A stretch of DNA of 64,000 nt from Mumia flava (lineage in GTDB: Bacteria; Actinomycetota; Actinomycetes; Propionibacteriales; Nocardioidaceae). The notes under the pieces were generated by a model, which made no database searches, had not been told where the DNA came from, and saw only the letters and a program-made list of their open reading frames with translations. How positions within the stretch are numbered: position 1 is the stretch's first letter; the number at the start of each line of letters is the position of its first letter. The stretch spans positions 992,001-1,056,000 of the forward strand of contig NZ_PGEZ01000002.1 of NCBI RefSeq assembly GCF_002797495.1, written 5' to 3'. The translations under genes were made by a program, and so were the position numbers. Of the stretch, positions 24,157 to 60,302 are shown piece by piece.

Positions 24157-24168
24157 CGGCCCCTCCCC

Positions 24169-24267
24169 GCTCGTCGAGGCCGAGCGAAGCGACCCCTCCC
24201 GCTCGTCGAGGCCGAGCGAAGCGACCCCTCCCGCGCGTCGAGGCCGAGCGAAGCGAGGATCGAGACG
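24169..24267. repeat. three tandem copies of a 32-bp intergenic repeat
   Basis: Copies begin at 24169, 24201 and 24233. The first two are identical 32-mers; the third differs at its start and end and continues into GGATCGAGACG. The core CGAGGCCGAGCGAAGCGA, read on the other strand, is the same family as the repeats at 34356-34426 and 38529-38594 (consensus GTCTCGATC then CTCGCT-CGCTCG then CCTCGAC). It lies between convergent MarR and metallo-hydrolase genes. Confidence 0.85.
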
Positions 24268-48356: not shown

Positions 48357-49577
48357 ATGGGCGAGCTCAACAGGAGACGGCTCCTCAAAGCAGGAGGAGC
48401 GCTCAGCGCACTCGGCGCGATGACGGTCGCGGCGCCGTCGACGGCATGGTCGTGGTCACCGGCAGGATCGGTCGCCGGCACCGGCGCGGGGCTGGACCCG
48501 CGGTGGGTCTGGGACGACCCGGTCGACTCGCTGATCGCCGACGTCATCGACCGTGGAGACGCGCAGCTGGTCAACGACTCGATGAAGCGCTGGATCTACA
48601 ACGGCCAGGCAGTGCCGTCCGGTGCGCCGGCGGACGTCCAGGAGTTCATGAACAGCGCGATCCAGCTGCCGGCCTGGGCGGACCTCGAGAAGCTCGACGT
48701 CGCGTTCGACTTCTGCGAGAAGTGGGGCCTGTATCTCGGCGTCCTCTACGGGATGAACAGCGGCATGATGAGCACCGCCATCCCGCGCGAGGCCCGCGCC
48801 GTCTACTACTCCAAAGGCGGATGGGACCTCAAGGACCGCATCTCCAAGACGGCCAAGCTGGGCAAGGACATCGGCGACCACCACGCGTACCGCTCCGACG
48901 GGAAGATGTCGGTGACCTGTGCCCGGACGCGGATGACCCACGCGGGCGTCCGCCACCTCCTCCCCCAGTCACCGCACTGGGTCGCGGCCGCGGACGAGGA
49001 GATCCCGATCAGCCAGCGCGACATCATGGTCACCTGGCACAGCCTGGCGTCGTCGGTGTGGCAGAAGCTCATGGAGTGGGACATCGACGTCCCCGACGAC
49101 GAGGCCGAGGCGTACCTCCACCTGTGGCAGGTCACCGCCAGCATGCTCGGCGTCCTCGACGAGTACATCCCCGCGACGTGGGCGGATGCGCTCGCGCAGC
49201 GTGAGCAGATCCTCGTCCCGCTCCTCGGCGCGACGCCCGAGGGCATCAAGCTCGCGGACATGCTGCTCGACCTCGGCAAGAACCTCGACGCCACGCTCGT
49301 CACCCGGCCGGTGCTCGAGTCGTTCACGCGCTACATGCTGGGCAACAAGATCACCGACAGCCTCAAGATCCCGCGACACTTCATCCTCGATCCCACGATC
49401 AGGACGGGGTGGCCGATCTTCGTCAAGATCCGCGAGTTCGGCCTCAACCTGCCGTTGTCGGAGAAGCTCTACTGGACCTTCGAGGAGCTGATCCGGGTCG
49501 TGGTCCTCATCTACATGAGCGAGGGCATCGAGCCGATCCTCATCGACATCCCCACCGCCAACAACCCCAACCCCTGA
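48357..49577 (+). CDS. lcp: latex-clearing-protein (Lcp)-family oxygenase, DUF2236
   Basis: A 406-residue DUF2236 protein of the length of Streptomyces K30 Lcp. The N-terminus ELNRRRLLKAGGALSALGAMTVAA is a twin-arginine signal, so it is exported folded. The family core is ARTRMTHAGVRHLLPQSPHWV, with conserved Arg, Thr and His near the haem b site, and later DIMVTWHSLASSVWQKL. Lcp cleaves poly(cis-1,4-isoprene) oxidatively; the wider DUF2236 family includes MpaB-like enzymes with other substrates. GAGGAG precedes the ATG. No oxiA/oxiB aldehyde oxidase genes follow, so rubber use is not established. Confidence 0.8.
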   Translation: MGELNRRRLLKAGGALSALGAMTVAAPSTAWSWSPAGSVAGTGAGLDPRWVWDDPVDSLIADVIDRGDAQLVNDSMKRWIYNGQAVPSGAPADVQEFMNSAIQLPAWADLEKLDVAFDFCEKWGLYLGVLYGMNSGMMSTAIPREARAVYYSKGGWDLKDRISKTAKLGKDIGDHHAYRSDGKMSVTCARTRMTHAGVRHLLPQSPHWVAAADEEIPISQRDIMVTWHSLASSVWQKLMEWDIDVPDDEAEAYLHLWQVTASMLGVLDEYIPATWADALAQREQILVPLLGATPEGIKLADMLLDLGKNLDATLVTRPVLESFTRYMLGNKITDSLKIPRHFILDPTIRTGWPIFVKIREFGLNLPLSEKLYWTFEELIRVVVLIYMSEGIEPILIDIPTANNPNP

Positions 49578-55953: not shown

Positions 55954-56874
55954 TCAGGGCAAGCGGGCGAGCGCGCGCAGGTCGTCCAGCAGGCGGGCAC
56001 GGGTCGGCGGGTCGAGGTCGTGCATCAGCTGCTCCTGGACGGCCGCGACGGCGGGCGCGGACTCGTACGCCGCGCGCTCCCCCTCCGGAGTCGGTGTCAG
56101 CACCCGGCGGCGCCCGTCCGCAGGGTCCCGCTCCTGCGCGACCCAGCCACGCTCGCGCAGCCGCGCGACGACTTCGCCCACGGTCGTACGGTCGAACGCG
56201 GCGCGGTCCGCGACCCCGCTCTGGCTCACGCCCGGGCTCGCGACGACCACGTGCAGCGCCGCGTACTGCGGTCCCGTGATCCGGCCACCGAGCTCGGCTG
56301 CGAACAGCTCGGTGTGCACCTGCTGGGAACGGCGCACCAGGTGGCCGGGCAGCACGAGCGGAGAGGCCGTACGGTCGTCGACCGAGTCGCGATCTCCGAC
56401 CCGGCCCACGCTGCGCAGCGCGTCGAGGAACGCCTCGCGCTCCCCCGCCGCTACGGGCTCGAGCAACCGATCCTGGACGCGCCCCACGGCCGGCGCGACC
56501 GCGCCGAGCGTACGGAGGCCGTCGGGGGTGACCGTCAGGACGTGACGGCGCCCGTCGGTCACGTCGCGCTGCCGCTCGAGCCAGCCGCGCCGCTCGAGCC
56601 GCCGCAGGACCTCCATCGTCGAGGTGCGGTCGAGGAACGCGAGCGCGCCGATCCCGCGCTGGTCGGTGCCGGGGTACGCACGGACGGCGCCGAGCACCGC
56701 GTACTGCCGGCTGGTCACGGTGTCCCCGACCTCCTCGGCCCACAGCGCCTGATGCACCTGGTACGAGCGCCGCAGCAGGTGCCCGCAGAGCGCAGTCAGC
56801 GCAACCCCGCCGGGCGCGCGCCCGGCGGGGTTCTCCGACGTACGGTCACGCGGGTGTGCCGGGGAGGACTCCAC
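55954..56874 (-). CDS. tandem MarR-MarR fusion regulator
   Basis: A 306-residue protein with two complete MarR winged helices. The first (residues ~30-150) has GTDQRGIGALAFLDRTSTMEVLRRLERRGWLERQRDVTDGRRHVLTVTPDG; the second (~170-300) has SQSGVADRAAFDRTTVGEVVARLRERGWVAQERDPADGRRRVLTPTPEG. A monomer would thus form the pseudo-dimer that normal MarR needs two chains for. The GTG start is assumed; no earlier start is possible without the island. The monooxygenase gene follows with a 28-bp palindrome between. Confidence 0.9.
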   Translation of the reverse strand: MESSPAHPRDRTSENPAGRAPGGVALTALCGHLLRRSYQVHQALWAEEVGDTVTSRQYAVLGAVRAYPGTDQRGIGALAFLDRTSTMEVLRRLERRGWLERQRDVTDGRRHVLTVTPDGLRTLGAVAPAVGRVQDRLLEPVAAGEREAFLDALRSVGRVGDRDSVDDRTASPLVLPGHLVRRSQQVHTELFAAELGGRITGPQYAALHVVVASPGVSQSGVADRAAFDRTTVGEVVARLRERGWVAQERDPADGRRRVLTPTPEGERAAYESAPAVAAVQEQLMHDLDPPTRARLLDDLRALARLP

Positions 56875-56887
56875 GACACCCCATCAT

Positions 56888-56916
56888 GGCCCTCAGCTGC
56901 GCGTGACGCGTCGCCG
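56888..56916. repeat. 29-bp direct repeat, left copy
   Basis: Identical over 29 bp to 57983-58011. Homology weakens but goes on for ~16 more bases, and its reverse translation (Y-A-V-R-R-R-R-V-T-R-S-stop) mirrors the C-terminus of the metallo-hydrolase gene (Y-T-V-G-R-R-R-V-T-R-S-stop). It is therefore a displaced second copy of that gene's 3' end, beyond the XRE/nucleotidyltransferase module. Confidence 0.9.
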
Positions 56917-56937
56917 ACGGACGGCGTATCTCGCGGT

Positions 56938-56957
56938 ATAGCAGAAAGTGCTATGAT
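56938..56957 (+). promoter_or_regulatory. promoter with ATAGCA-N5-TGCTAT dyad before the XRE gene
   Basis: Six-bp arms at 56938-56943 and 56949-56954 overlap a TATGAT -10 box at 56952-56957. The ATG is only 7 bp past the -10 box, so the transcript is probably leaderless. The dyad suits autorepression by the XRE protein. Confidence 0.65.
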
Positions 56958-56963
56958 CGTGCC

Positions 56964-57491
56964 ATGTCGACCCGAGGGGAACTCCTGCGCGAGGTGATGT
57001 CTGAGACGGGCACCACCCAGACGATGCTGTCCCGCGTCAGCGGTGTGCATCAGCCGAGCATCAGCCAGTTCCTGTCTGGCAAGGTCGACCTGAGTGACGA
57101 GCAGCTGGACCGGCTGTTGTCGTGCATGGGCTATCGACTCGAGGTCGTGCGCCGTCCGGTCGAACCAGAGCTCACGCACTCCGAGCACCGCTCCTGGATG
57201 CTGCACCGTCGACTTTCCTTCCACCTGACGAAGCCGACCTTCGAGGAGTGGCAGCCGCGACTGCTCGAGAACCTGGAGCGGCTCCGCGGCGGGGTCCGAG
57301 GAAGGGTCCACACACAGAACGTGGAGCGTTGGACGGACCTCGTCAGCGAAGGTGAGATCCTCGACCTGCACCGGGCGATGACAGGTCTGGATCGGCGATC
57401 GATCGAGATGCGAGAGGTCTCGCCGTTCAGCGGCCTTCTCCCCGACTCCGAACGGCTGGACGTCCTGCGCGAGCTCAGGCGCGCCGGCTGA
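56964..57491 (+). CDS. XRE-family regulator / antitoxin-like protein
   Basis: A 175-residue protein with an N-terminal HTH (ELLREVMSETGTTQTMLSRVSGVHQPSISQFLSGKVDLS) and a C-terminal ~110-residue helical region that I cannot assign. The stop and the next start overlap by one base, as in toxin-antitoxin pairs of XRE plus nucleotidyltransferase. GC content is lower and codon use less biased than in the flanks. It lies inside the 29-bp direct repeats and is probably the intact half of an addiction-type module. Confidence 0.8.
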   Translation: MSTRGELLREVMSETGTTQTMLSRVSGVHQPSISQFLSGKVDLSDEQLDRLLSCMGYRLEVVRRPVEPELTHSEHRSWMLHRRLSFHLTKPTFEEWQPRLLENLERLRGGVRGRVHTQNVERWTDLVSEGEILDLHRAMTGLDRRSIEMREVSPFSGLLPDSERLDVLRELRRAG

Positions 57492-57948
57492 TGCGACGCG
57501 ACCAGCTGGAGCATGCGATCCGAGCCGCCTGTCAGATCATCGACAGACACGAGGTGATCATCGTCGGGTCACAGGCAATCCTGGGCTCGGTCGACGAGGT
57601 GGACCTGCCGGAGGTCGCGACGATGTCGATGGAGATCGATGTGCTGCCGATTGCCCCGACGAACGAGGAGACCGCACGCCTTGCTGACGAGATCGCCTCG
57701 TCAAGGTGAGCAACCTCAACACGGCTGCGCCCGGCGGCGAGCCTGTGTTCACCGGGTGGCGCCTCGACAAGGACGACCTCTGCGTGGCCAAGCTCTGCGC
57801 GTTTCGGGAGAAGGACCGTGACTTCGTGCGCGCCCTCGTCGAAGCTCGCCTGGTCGACCGAACGGCGATCGAGGCCCGACTAACGACGGTGGCGCCTCGC
57901 TACCAGCGCGCCGCGGACGCCGCGGCGCGCTGGATCGCCACACTCTGA
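57491..57948 (+). pseudogene. DUF6036-type nucleotidyltransferase, internal deletion
   Basis: The first 67 codons (RRDQLEHAIRAACQIIDRHE, VIIVGSQAILGS, then SMEIDVLPI) are the N-terminal half of a DUF6036/AbiEii-like nucleotidyltransferase with GSQ and ExDV motifs. The second half is found in another frame: DRLVKVSNLNTAAPGG, FTGWRLDKDDLCVAKLCAFREKDRDFVRALVEARLVD. The expected ~35-45 residues between (the HGYYAHGV-type region) are missing. The break lies near 57689-57697 and is out of frame, so the protein is dead unless two chains assemble. This is a clean deletion scar. Confidence 0.75.
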
Positions 57949-57982
57949 TCCGACCTCGTCGGCCGGCCAGCCACAGCGCGAG

Positions 57983-58011
57983 GGCCCTCAGCTGCGCGTG
58001 ACGCGTCGCCG
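57983..58011. repeat. 29-bp direct repeat, right copy (3' end of the MBL gene)
   Basis: The other member of the pair with 56888-56916. It covers the last eight codons, including the stop, of the metallo-hydrolase gene on the minus strand, plus 5 bp beyond. Confidence 0.9.
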
Positions 58012-59136
58012 CCCGACCGTGTAGACCTCGAGCTCGCGCCCGACGTGCACCGCGCCGTCGAACCCGACATGCGCCCAGCGACGCCACTGCTGGCGGTCCA
58101 GCGGCGAGCCGTCGAGGTTGCCGATGTGGCTGAGCAGCAGCGTGTCGACGCCTGCGCGCTGCGCGACCGGGCCGACCTCCTGGACCTCGACGTGGGACTC
58201 CAGGATGTGGGCGAGCACCGGCTCCGGCAGCGTCATCCCACGCACGTTCACCGCTTCGTGGACGAGCAGGCGCGACCCGTCGGCGAGGCCTTCGAGATTC
58301 GTGCTGTACGTGGTGTCGCCGGAGAACGTGATGGACCCGTGCTCGGTGTCGAAGCGGTAGCCGAACGCCGGGTACGCCGGGCCGTGCGGCACGAGCACCG
58401 CGCTGACGCGGACCCGGTCGTCCTCCATCACGACGAACGGATCCATGTCCGGAGCGGTGTTCTGGAACGACGCACCGACGTCCGGGATCGCGATCTCGTG
58501 CACGTCGGCCAGGGCACGGGTCTCGCGGATCCGCGAGTCGCGCAGGAAGACGTTCGTGCTGTACGCGAACGCGGCGCAGGCGTGGTCGGTCAGCGCCGAC
58601 AGGCCCGGGGTCGGGTTCTCGGGCGAGGTCGTCGGCGACGTGCCGCCCCCGAACGTCGGAGGCAGACCGCCGGCCGAACCGGGCCCGTACACCGGGACCG
58701 GCCCCGCCAGGCTGTCACCCTGGCCCGGCGCGTTCCAGCCGCCGAGCAGGAAGAGGTTCGGGTAGTCGGCCACGTGGTCGACGTGCAGGTGCGTGACGAA
58801 CACCGCGGCCAGGTCGGCGAGCCTCAGCCCCGCCTGGACGTACTGGTGCACGGCGGACGCACCGGCGTCGACCAGGTAGACCCGGCCGTCGACGACGACC
58901 GCGGTCGAGATCCCGGCCTGGCCGGGCCGCGGCGGCGGCCCACCCGCCGTCCCGAGCAGCACGACGTGCAGGCCGCGGGAGAGGTCGACGGACCGGCCGC
59001 GGCCCGCTGACGGCGACGCGTGCGCGATCCCGGGCAGGGCGACCGCACCGAGGCCGGCCGCGGCCGCGCCGCCGAGGAGCAGGCGCCGCGACAGCGCCGT
59101 GGTGGTGTGGGTCGGGTCGGAGCAGGAGGTGCACAT
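57988..59136 (-). CDS. Tat-exported MBL-fold metallo-hydrolase
   Basis: A 382-residue hydrolase. The N-terminus has ALSRRLLLGGAAAAGLGAVALPGIAHA, a twin-arginine signal after a CTSC leader. The MBL core is VYLVDAGASAVHQYVQAGL, VFVTHLHVDHVADYPNLFLLGGW (HxHxDH), ITFSGDTTYSTNLEGLA and a late HIGNLDG. It resembles the RNase Z/arylsulphatase/phosphodiesterase-like group; a lactonase or phosphodiesterase role is likely. Its start overlaps the stop of the ABC lipoprotein gene (TGATG), so it belongs to the importer operon and probably prepares the substrate outside the cell. Confidence 0.88.
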   Translation of the reverse strand: MCTSCSDPTHTTTALSRRLLLGGAAAAGLGAVALPGIAHASPSAGRGRSVDLSRGLHVVLLGTAGGPPPRPGQAGISTAVVVDGRVYLVDAGASAVHQYVQAGLRLADLAAVFVTHLHVDHVADYPNLFLLGGWNAPGQGDSLAGPVPVYGPGSAGGLPPTFGGGTSPTTSPENPTPGLSALTDHACAAFAYSTNVFLRDSRIRETRALADVHEIAIPDVGASFQNTAPDMDPFVVMEDDRVRVSAVLVPHGPAYPAFGYRFDTEHGSITFSGDTTYSTNLEGLADGSRLLVHEAVNVRGMTLPEPVLAHILESHVEVQEVGPVAQRAGVDTLLLSHIGNLDGSPLDRQQWRRWAHVGFDGAVHVGRELEVYTVGRRRVTRS

Positions 59137-60302
59137 CAGCCGGCCAGCCCCCACAGCTCGAGGAACCCGTCCTGGTAGTCCGTCGACCCGTACCACGCCC
59201 CGGTCTTCTCGGCCTCGGGCGTCAGGTCGAGGTCGTCGATGTTCTCAGCGGTGAACATCCGCTGGTACGGGAAGGCGACCTCGGTGTTGCTCGGCTGGCC
59301 GGCCATCATCCGGACCGCCTGGTCGGCGGCGTACCAGGCGAGCGCGTCGGCGTTGAACCCCACCTCGCTGGAGACCAGCTGGCCGCCCTCGAGCTGCTGG
59401 AGCGCGGCGAGGGTGCCGTCCATGCTGGCGATCTTGACCGACGTGGCGTTGGCGGTCTGCAGTCCGTCGATCGTCGGCTGCACGAGGAAGTCGACCTCGG
59501 TCTGCACGTAGTCGATATCAGGGTTCTTGGTCAGCTCGCTGGTGACGAGGCTCGGAAGCTTGTCGAGCTGACCGGTGTTGGCCTTGATGACCGTGACCTC
59601 GCAGTCCGGGCAGTCCCGCTCGTACGTGGCGAGTGCGCCCTGCTCGGCCCAGATCGTGGTCGCCGGGGTGTCGGTGACCTGGATGTAGAGAACGTTCGCT
59701 GCGGCGTCGGAGTCCGCGATCACCCAGCTCGCCGACCGCGACTGGAGTGCGACGTAGTCGGGCGTCAGGTACGCGTACTGCGCGGGGTCGCCAGGGCCGG
59801 CGGGCGCGGTCATCGTGTTGACGACCGGGATGCCCGCCTTCTGGGCACTCTCGAACGCGACGGACGCGAGATCGGTCGGGATGGACCCGGTGATGATCGC
59901 CGCAGCCTCCGCGTCGATGCCCTGCTGGATGCAGCTCGCCATGTTCGCGGGGTTGGCCTTGCCGTCGCAGACCTCGACCTGGACGTCCGCCGCACCGAGC
60001 GCGTTCTCGAGCGCCGACGCCACCGCCTGGAAGACCGGCACCTGGTAGGTGGCCGGGACGAAGTAGACGGTCTTGCCGGCGAGCTGGTCGACGCCGTCGA
60101 CCGCGTCACCGGGGGCCTCGAAGCTCTCGACGGCCTTCGTGGCCTCCTCGACGACCTGCTGGGCGGCCTTCGCCTCGGCGCTGGTGGCCTGGGCGGCGGA
60201 ACCTGCCTCGGCGGCGCTCTGCTCCTCCACGGAGCTGCATCCGGACAGCGCCAGGGCGGCGACCGCGCACGCGGCCACCAAGGGCTTGTCGATCCTGAAC
60301 AT
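59136..60302 (-). CDS. ABC importer substrate-binding lipoprotein (ribose/sugar type)
   Basis: A 388-residue class-B periplasmic-binding protein anchored by a lipobox in LVAACAVAALALSGCSSVEE. After an Ala/Glu-rich coiled linker (residues ~25-70) the fold begins VYFVPATYQVPVFQAVASALENALG and keeps AAAIITGSIPTDLASVAFESAQKAGIPVVNT and VKIASMDGTLAALQQLEGG. The nearest described group is the ribose/autoinducer-2/monosaccharide PBPs (Peripla_BP_4). The ATG has GGAGAACTCCC upstream. Third gene of the operon. Confidence 0.9.
   Translation of the reverse strand: MFRIDKPLVAACAVAALALSGCSSVEEQSAAEAGSAAQATSAEAKAAQQVVEEATKAVESFEAPGDAVDGVDQLAGKTVYFVPATYQVPVFQAVASALENALGAADVQVEVCDGKANPANMASCIQQGIDAEAAAIITGSIPTDLASVAFESAQKAGIPVVNTMTAPAGPGDPAQYAYLTPDYVALQSRSASWVIADSDAAANVLYIQVTDTPATTIWAEQGALATYERDCPDCEVTVIKANTGQLDKLPSLVTSELTKNPDIDYVQTEVDFLVQPTIDGLQTANATSVKIASMDGTLAALQQLEGGQLVSSEVGFNADALAWYAADQAVRMMAGQPSNTEVAFPYQRMFTAENIDDLDLTPEAEKTGAWYGSTDYQDGFLELWGLAG

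Follow-up and report, generated by a model that had tools for sequence, protein, structure and literature searches.

How did a 1,066-bp stretch consisting of an XRE-type regulator gene and a broken partner gene come to lie between two identical 29-bp sequences, exactly at the 3' end of a metallo-hydrolase gene of Mumia flava? The window, i.e. the whole 64-kb stretch of DNA that was analysed, presents the following features at this place:

55954..56874, minus strand: tandem MarR gene, with a predicted GTG start 18 bp from the left stop-codon copy
56888..56916: left 29-bp copy, displaced hydrolase 3' end, putatively attL-like
56917..57982: insert, 1,066 bp, GC 65.9%
56937..56957, plus strand: palindrome TATAGCA-n4-TGCTAT, read by eye, overlapping a -10-like box (TATGAT) 6 nt 5' of the XRE ATG
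56964..57491, plus strand: intact XRE gene (HTH_3), 175 aa, from the ORF list and Pfam
57491..57948, plus strand: broken DUF6036 nucleotidyltransferase gene, in ORFs 57491-57709 (72 aa) and 57706-57948 (80 aa)
57983..58011: right 29-bp copy, last seven hydrolase codons, stop and 5 bp, putatively attR-like
57988..59196, minus strand: MBL-fold metallo-hydrolase gene, the repeat being made of its 3' end, from the ORF list and Pfam

The repeat pair and its flanking genes

The exact direct repeat GGCCCTCAGCTGCGCGTGACGCGTCGCCG is present in two copies with an offset of 1,095 bp, as stated in the initial annotation. The right copy encodes the hydrolase C-terminus RRRVTRS followed by the stop codon and 5 bp, and the eight codons plus stop originally assigned to it have to be corrected to seven. 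In the M. flava genome (4.4 Mb) the 29-mer occurs at exactly these two places with up to three mismatches allowed, and at none when read backwards as a control; a common, cargo-free genomic repeat is thereby ruled out, and a chance repeat is ruled out by the 29 exact bases. In a family-wide search of 341 genomes the 29-mer was absent from all 340 others, so that its use as a flank of other cargo, for which a search had been proposed, was not encountered there. Nothing convincing was obtained for the 29-mer region or its core in phages (blastn), plasmids or viral contigs (20-mer), and no parent element with the 29-bp core was found in these collections or in the 341 family genomes. The 29-mer ranks second by length among the exact direct repeats of the window. 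The longest (37 bp) belongs to a tandem array of an approximately 32-bp unit at 24166-24260, with copies at 24166 and 24198.

Towards the gene interior, 8/12 bases beyond the core match between the copies (for random pairs from this region P is about 0.005, the 12-bp length having been picked after the fact), compared with 5/12 on the other side. The proposed continuation of a diverged C-terminus past the left core is thus retained as a suggestive feature only, for the gene-internal side and not for the other.

The insert was correctly described as lower in GC than its surroundings, with 65.9% vs 73.5% in the hydrolase gene, 75.9% in the MarR gene and 71.7% in the window. Among 1,259 stretches of insert length, sampled every 50 bp along the window, two are as low, one of which overlaps the insert. 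The other, 48501-49566, is the sole further sampled stretch that comes down to the insert's level.

The genes around the insert follow each other on the minus strand in the order ABC transporter set, substrate-binding protein, hydrolase, tandem MarR and FAD monooxygenase; the last three were named by Pfam, the transporter set and the binding protein from their sequence. The insert genes are placed on the plus strand and part hydrolase and MarR. When the insert is removed, the stop-codon copy at 56893 comes to lie 18 bp from the predicted GTG start of MarR at 56874, so a gene run was most probably interrupted by the insert. A perfect 30-nt GC-rich inverted repeat (AACCCCGCCGGGCGC/GCGCCCGGCGGGGTT) at 56803-56832 falls within the 5' part predicted for the MarR ORF; it may be a terminator, and the true MarR start would then be elsewhere.

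An empty site, in which one 29-mer would join the hydrolase end to the MarR gene, had been anticipated for related genomes. A DNA search of the genus (six genomes including that of M. flava) recovered the hydrolase-MarR stretch from the own genome only. Protein searches with strict E-value limits yielded hydrolase relatives in 17/294 family genomes (E 1e-40) and 3/394 class genomes (E 1e-85), the own genome included in both counts, with identities of at most 56%; a relative at 64% identity was detected on Streptomyces plasmids, and three distant ones in a scan of named contigs. Neither MarR nor XRE gave a match (E 1e-8) in any of the 20 fetched hydrolase regions, two of which are own-genome paralogues, and the MarR neighbour is likewise absent (E 1e-8) from the plasmid and named-contig loci. 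No empty site was found among the sampled relatives because none of them was found to have the hydrolase gene adjoining a MarR gene. The hydrolase gene is rare and its C-terminus varies among relatives.

A regulator gene with a broken partner

As previously noted, the repeats enclose an XRE gene, here recognized as intact, and a nucleotidyltransferase gene in two pieces. The XRE stop and the nucleotidyltransferase start overlap at 57491, the partner directly following the regulator. Each window piece scores below the Pfam cut-off for DUF6036 and an intact relative above it; the N-terminal piece displays a GS and E-x-D pattern, which we take to be that of nucleotidyltransferases. The gene carries a 103-bp deletion with a frameshift at 57689-57695. 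In genome G005 of the same genus the nucleotidyltransferase is uninterrupted and contains GAGATCGA twice, 103 bp apart, whereas the window has a single GAGATCG at 57689-57695 and the intervening stretch is gone; because of this difference in GAGATCG copies, the break appears to bear the mark of a slip between short (7-8-bp) repeats.

Sequences similar to the palindrome at 56937-56957, which we interpret as a probable operator combined with a leaderless promoter of XRE, precede homologous modules. A TATAGCA-n4-TGCTATA-like palindrome overlapping a -10-like box just 5' of the start was seen by eye, with variation, in all 12 displayed plus-strand family loci, and also by eye on the plasmid copy L070 and in 6/7 class loci. 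Such an arrangement would fit self-repression by XRE and leaderless transcription.

Pfam gave no match for the six further ORFs of the insert, and none of the four Phage_integrase matches and the one Resolvase match of the genome lies within the window, in line with the annotated lack of a visible integrase; the insert also gave no match to seven related integrases. With XRE, two DUF6036 pieces and six unmatched ORFs, it is devoid of integration or transfer genes, including the own integrase that an autonomous integrative element would have. Arm-like motifs (GCAGGTCAG-type, TGTTGCC pairs), as found beside many tRNA repeats, are absent from the insert, and no known RNA or tRNA target was detected above threshold in the window. 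A transposon was rejected since the scanned ORFs contain no transposase match and the insert ends no inverted-repeat pair among the 25 of 176 listed; moreover, the G005 insert described below lacks a matching target duplication, against the fixed-length duplication of a transposon.

The layout corresponds to that of XRE-nucleotidyltransferase toxin-antitoxin systems, with XRE directly before its partner and a shared promoter with a palindrome, but the toxin gene is not intact owing to the 103-bp deletion and frameshift. A toxin-antitoxin (addiction) role of the pair is suggested solely by resemblance, and in the window copy the presumed toxin gene is disrupted. Searches against solved structures produced no match for the nucleotidyltransferase and three weak matches of the HTH part of XRE, one of them to a HigA antitoxin (E 0.012); PADLOC and NCBIfam contributed no informative match for the pair. 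According to PMC8406773, XreSs-MNTss of Streptococcus suis is an Xre-MNT type II toxin-antitoxin system with self-repression and predicted promoter palindromes. The window pair resembles it in the XRE regulator gene adjoining a nucleotidyltransferase-type gene and in the predicted promoter palindromes; unlike in XreSs-MNTss as described there, the window partner is broken, and the DUF6036 pair is likened to it by layout, as a putative toxin-antitoxin pair.

Related modules and attachment-type repeats

XRE relatives were identified in 21/294 family genomes (own included) and 9/394 class genomes (own and one family genome included), and on five mycobacterial plasmids; viral contigs contained no close relatives of XRE or the nucleotidyltransferase, and phages none of XRE. 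Twenty of the 22 other family XRE places were followed, the counts leaving out the fragment L043 and the decayed L041 (XRE at 50% identity with one internal stop codon). In 27/28 modules the XRE frame runs open for 171 codons or more, whereas a single ORF covers at least 150 of 188 nucleotidyltransferase residues in only 16/28 (12/28 not). It is thus common among the modules for the presumed antitoxin to be kept and the presumed toxin lost.

For 20 oriented family modules, the 700 bp 5' of XRE were compared with up to 50 kb behind it, or less at contig ends. Direct repeats of tRNA 3' ends (36-52 bp) bracket 8/20 of these modules:

L095: 46-bp tRNA-end repeat, 21.6 kb, integrase at the far end
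L098: 47-bp tRNA-end repeat, 22.7 kb, integrase at the far end
L101: 52-bp tRNA-end repeat, 3.06 kb, integrase matches of only 14-58 residues, at its two repeats
L102: 46-bp tRNA-end repeat with mismatches, 36.7 kb, integrase at the far end
L105: 36-bp tRNA-end repeat, 11.2 kb, integrase at the far end
L109: 43-bp tRNA-end repeat, 2.13 kb, no match to related integrases
L110: 50-bp tRNA-end repeat with one mismatch, 26.4 kb and a further copy at 48 kb, integrase at the far end
L112: 48-bp tRNA-end repeat, 15.1 kb, integrase at the far end

ARAGORN located a tRNA at the far copy in L095, L098, L102, L105 and L112, at the further copy in L110 and at the near copy in L109; in L101 the contig ends inside the tRNA. 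An integrase ORF is found at the far end of 6/8 of these modules (searched with the two L105 integrases as seeds among ORFs of at least 250 aa). The distance from the near repeat to the XRE start is 133-248 bp in the eight modules vs 47 bp in the window. A tRNA-end repeat is missing from the stretch scanned in the remaining 12/20 family modules, and an attachment repeat in 6/7 class modules; a 32-bp palindrome (L100), a hairpin-like 59-bp repeat (L166), a 28-bp motif (L103) and a score-20 repeat (L093) were not counted as attachment repeats. Under a stricter 25-kb rule with a score of at least 28, which misses L102 and L110, repeats accompany 6/27 modules vs 4/220 random anchors, and the four control positives are two anchors on one and the same L095 repeat and two in L162. 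Thus, in Nocardioidaceae the pair often adjoins an attachment-type repeat, opposite the integrase end of an integrated element.

In L103, an integrase without about its first 140 residues directly follows the nucleotidyltransferase, close to a tRNA-Glu gene. Since L109 and L101 lack a full integrase and that of L103 is truncated, a decay series exists, from integrase-bearing elements via a truncated integrase to small units without one, and integrase-bearing elements with the pair can collapse to 1-3 kb.

In L162, one of the seven class modules and from a distant family, the pair lies between two 21-bp repeat copies with one mismatch. They belong to a longer sequence which, in the stretch of L162 and L163 (genome G463), matches over 21-61 bp and is present in four copies at -3646, -2653, -172 and +1286 relative to the XRE start, parting small cargo such as a HepT-like gene (Pfam), the XRE-DUF6036 pair and others. 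The arrangement resembles a series of units deposited by successive integrations. A tandem motif of the TGTTGCCCCAGTGTTGCC type occurs approximately 72-83 bp 5' of XRE in L095, L098, L101, L103, L108, L110 and L112, and sometimes near the far repeat; these motifs are perhaps integrase arm sites. The palindrome of L100, GGCAGTTTCACCGCCTAGGCGGTGAAACTGCC, is perfect over 32 bp; one copy lies 82 bp 5' of XRE and a second one 49.8 kb beyond the gene.

In the XRE tree the window sequence groups with L093, L094, L096, L099, L100 and the plasmid copy L070, with moderate support (92/95, open fork), separate from the clade of the tRNA elements (100/99). The five genome loci L093, L094, L096, L099 and L100 have neither a tRNA-end repeat within 50 kb nor an integrase of the kind sought, and for L070, which the repeat scan left out, no integrase is listed in the 4-kb flanks. 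In G005 the pair is part of a 1,142-bp insert, between the end of a polyketide-cyclase-like gene (Pfam score just below the cut-off) and an ABC gene, at a place where genome G001 has 15 bp, and no long repeat is present; so the pair can apparently arrive or leave as a bare unit.

Origin of the insert

With a probability of roughly 0.5, we read the insert as the remnant of a larger mobile element integrated at the hydrolase 3' end, similar to a CIME (cis-mobilizable element). In this scenario, foreign DNA, of which 1,066 bp are left, would have entered the minus-strand genes precisely where the hydrolase gene terminates; an integrase would have targeted this 3' end and restored the last codons of the gene, the two 29-mers representing attL and attR. 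The XRE-DUF6036 module would have adjoined one end of the original element, and everything else that the element carried, integrase and arm sites included, would have been lost in later deletions. The nucleotidyltransferase might have been broken by slippage between two repeats of 7-8 bp, and XRE, as a putative autorepressor and antitoxin, might have been retained after the decay of its toxin-like partner. The end product would be a CIME-like remnant unable to move by itself. The insert would thereby fit as an extreme of the decay series, with a protein-gene end as target.

This remnant reading is favoured by the exact repeat with only two copies in the genome, which brackets a low-GC insert between genes otherwise 18 bp apart, and by the related modules, 8/20 of which lie in tRNA-end repeats, six with an integrase; under the stricter rule 6/27 modules stand against 4/220 control anchors. 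The gene-internal match of 8/12 bases would follow from a replacement gene end carried in by the element, and is suggestive in this sense; in a distant family the L162 pair also lies between repeat copies. On the other side, the window XRE groups with modules without attachment repeats and apart from the tRNA-element clade, the insert has no arm-like motifs and places XRE at 47 instead of 133-248 bp from the repeat, and 12/20 family and 6/7 class modules are without an attachment repeat. A dedicated integrase would hardly be expected to target a rare gene with a non-conserved C-terminus; outside this locus the 29-mer is absent from the 341 family genomes, and neither phages (blastn) nor viral contigs (20-mer) yielded it; and in G005 vs G001 a module of the same group sits in a compact insert without long repeats. 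The earlier proposal of an element integrated at a protein-gene 3' end therefore agrees with the repeat, the composition and the gene end, while the att nature of the copies stays putative and no empty site was found. Likewise, the notion of a decayed mobile module gains from the attachment-type repeats and integrases beside its relatives, but not from its nearest XRE relatives, which are not on such elements; for a descent from an ICE or IME the same division holds, related modules being on integrase-bearing elements and the nearest ones not.

Non-homologous capture is the main alternative, possible albeit doubtful, in which a double-strand break with long staggered ends took up an XRE-DUF6036 fragment by ligation, the fill-in duplicated 29 bp and an integrase was never involved. 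The genome encodes Ku and capture at a staggered break would therefore be feasible; the nearest genome relatives of the module without attachment repeats, the compact insert of G005 (1,142 bp vs 15 bp in G001, no long repeat) and the missing arm-like motifs point in the same direction. However, only by coincidence would the filled-in 29 bp end immediately behind a stop codon, the 8/12 match beyond the core is not expected from such an event, and integration-type repeats do bracket 8/20 related modules.

We regard homologous insertion as improbable. A donor with the module beside a similar hydrolase 3' end would have been joined by one crossover of a circle or by uneven exchange, the shared stretch being left twice. 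This would account for a diverged match continuing on the gene-internal side only, and gene content changes elsewhere in the genus, at the RibD_C-ABC transporter spot, without a visible recombinase; yet 29 bp are short for ordinary homologous recombination, and an XRE match (E 1e-8) is present in none of the 20 fetched hydrolase regions, including the two own paralogues. Least of all do we expect a small mobile unit, i.e. an XRE-DUF6036 pair moved in trans by the integrases of other elements and landing at gene ends. Three repeat-bracketed units (1.1, 2.1 and 3.1 kb) have no integrase gene, and small cargo is parted by the L162 repeats; but the loss of a resident integrase is seen in L103, so that decay would explain small units, and the end repeats differ between the three units. 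A more general variant, namely that XRE-DUF6036 pairs are distinct actinobacterial hitchhikers at the attachment end of integrated elements, able to be moved in trans from one gene end to another as bare 1.1-kb units and persisting as the last remnant because XRE outlasts its partner, seems to us rather unlikely.

A CIME is defined in PMC5704250 as a decayed ICE or IME which has lost its integration and transfer genes and kept attL and attR. The insert resembles this description in its cargo between two identical gene-end repeats without integrase or transfer genes; it differs in that the unit is only 1.1 kb long, the att nature of its ends is presumptive and the target is a rare protein gene. 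Toxin-antitoxin pairs that stabilise islands include mosAT of SXT and sgiAT of SGI1, as cited in PMC8406773, and HipAB of CGI48 (PMC8978831). Relatives of the window module are similar as regulator-partner pairs on integrated elements, unlike the window copy, which has outlived any element; a stabilising function would be attributed to it by analogy alone. A full-text search of the literature collection consulted found no paper on DUF6036, and an XRE-nucleotidyltransferase pair at the attachment end of an element was absent from titles and abstract starts among the matches listed.

The gene-end-repeat layout is real and tidy and of a known general kind; the link of the module to element ends is the part worth following. 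The case illustrates a possible course of reduction, at the end of which an integrated element is left with a single regulator-partner pair flanked by its end repeats. The graded series within one family, from 11-37-kb elements with integrase via a truncated integrase to 1-3-kb units without, makes the order of loss and a protection of islands by the pair testable, and it ties DUF6036, an uncharacterised nucleotidyltransferase family, to the ends of mobile elements.

In Neisseria, minimal mobile elements are known as small cargo changing at one core-gene spot without a recombinase. They require no duplication, unlike the window insert with its 29 bp; the RibD_C-ABC spot of the genus is similar to them. 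This spot, between a RibD_C gene and an ABC transporter gene (L044 3065-6270 in G005 and the matching stretches of G001-G004), varies among the genomes: 44 bp are present in G003, 105 bp in G002, approximately 1.15 kb in G004, a polyketide-cyclase-like gene in G001, and such a gene together with the XRE-DUF6036 pair in G005, while in G000 the genes are on different contigs.
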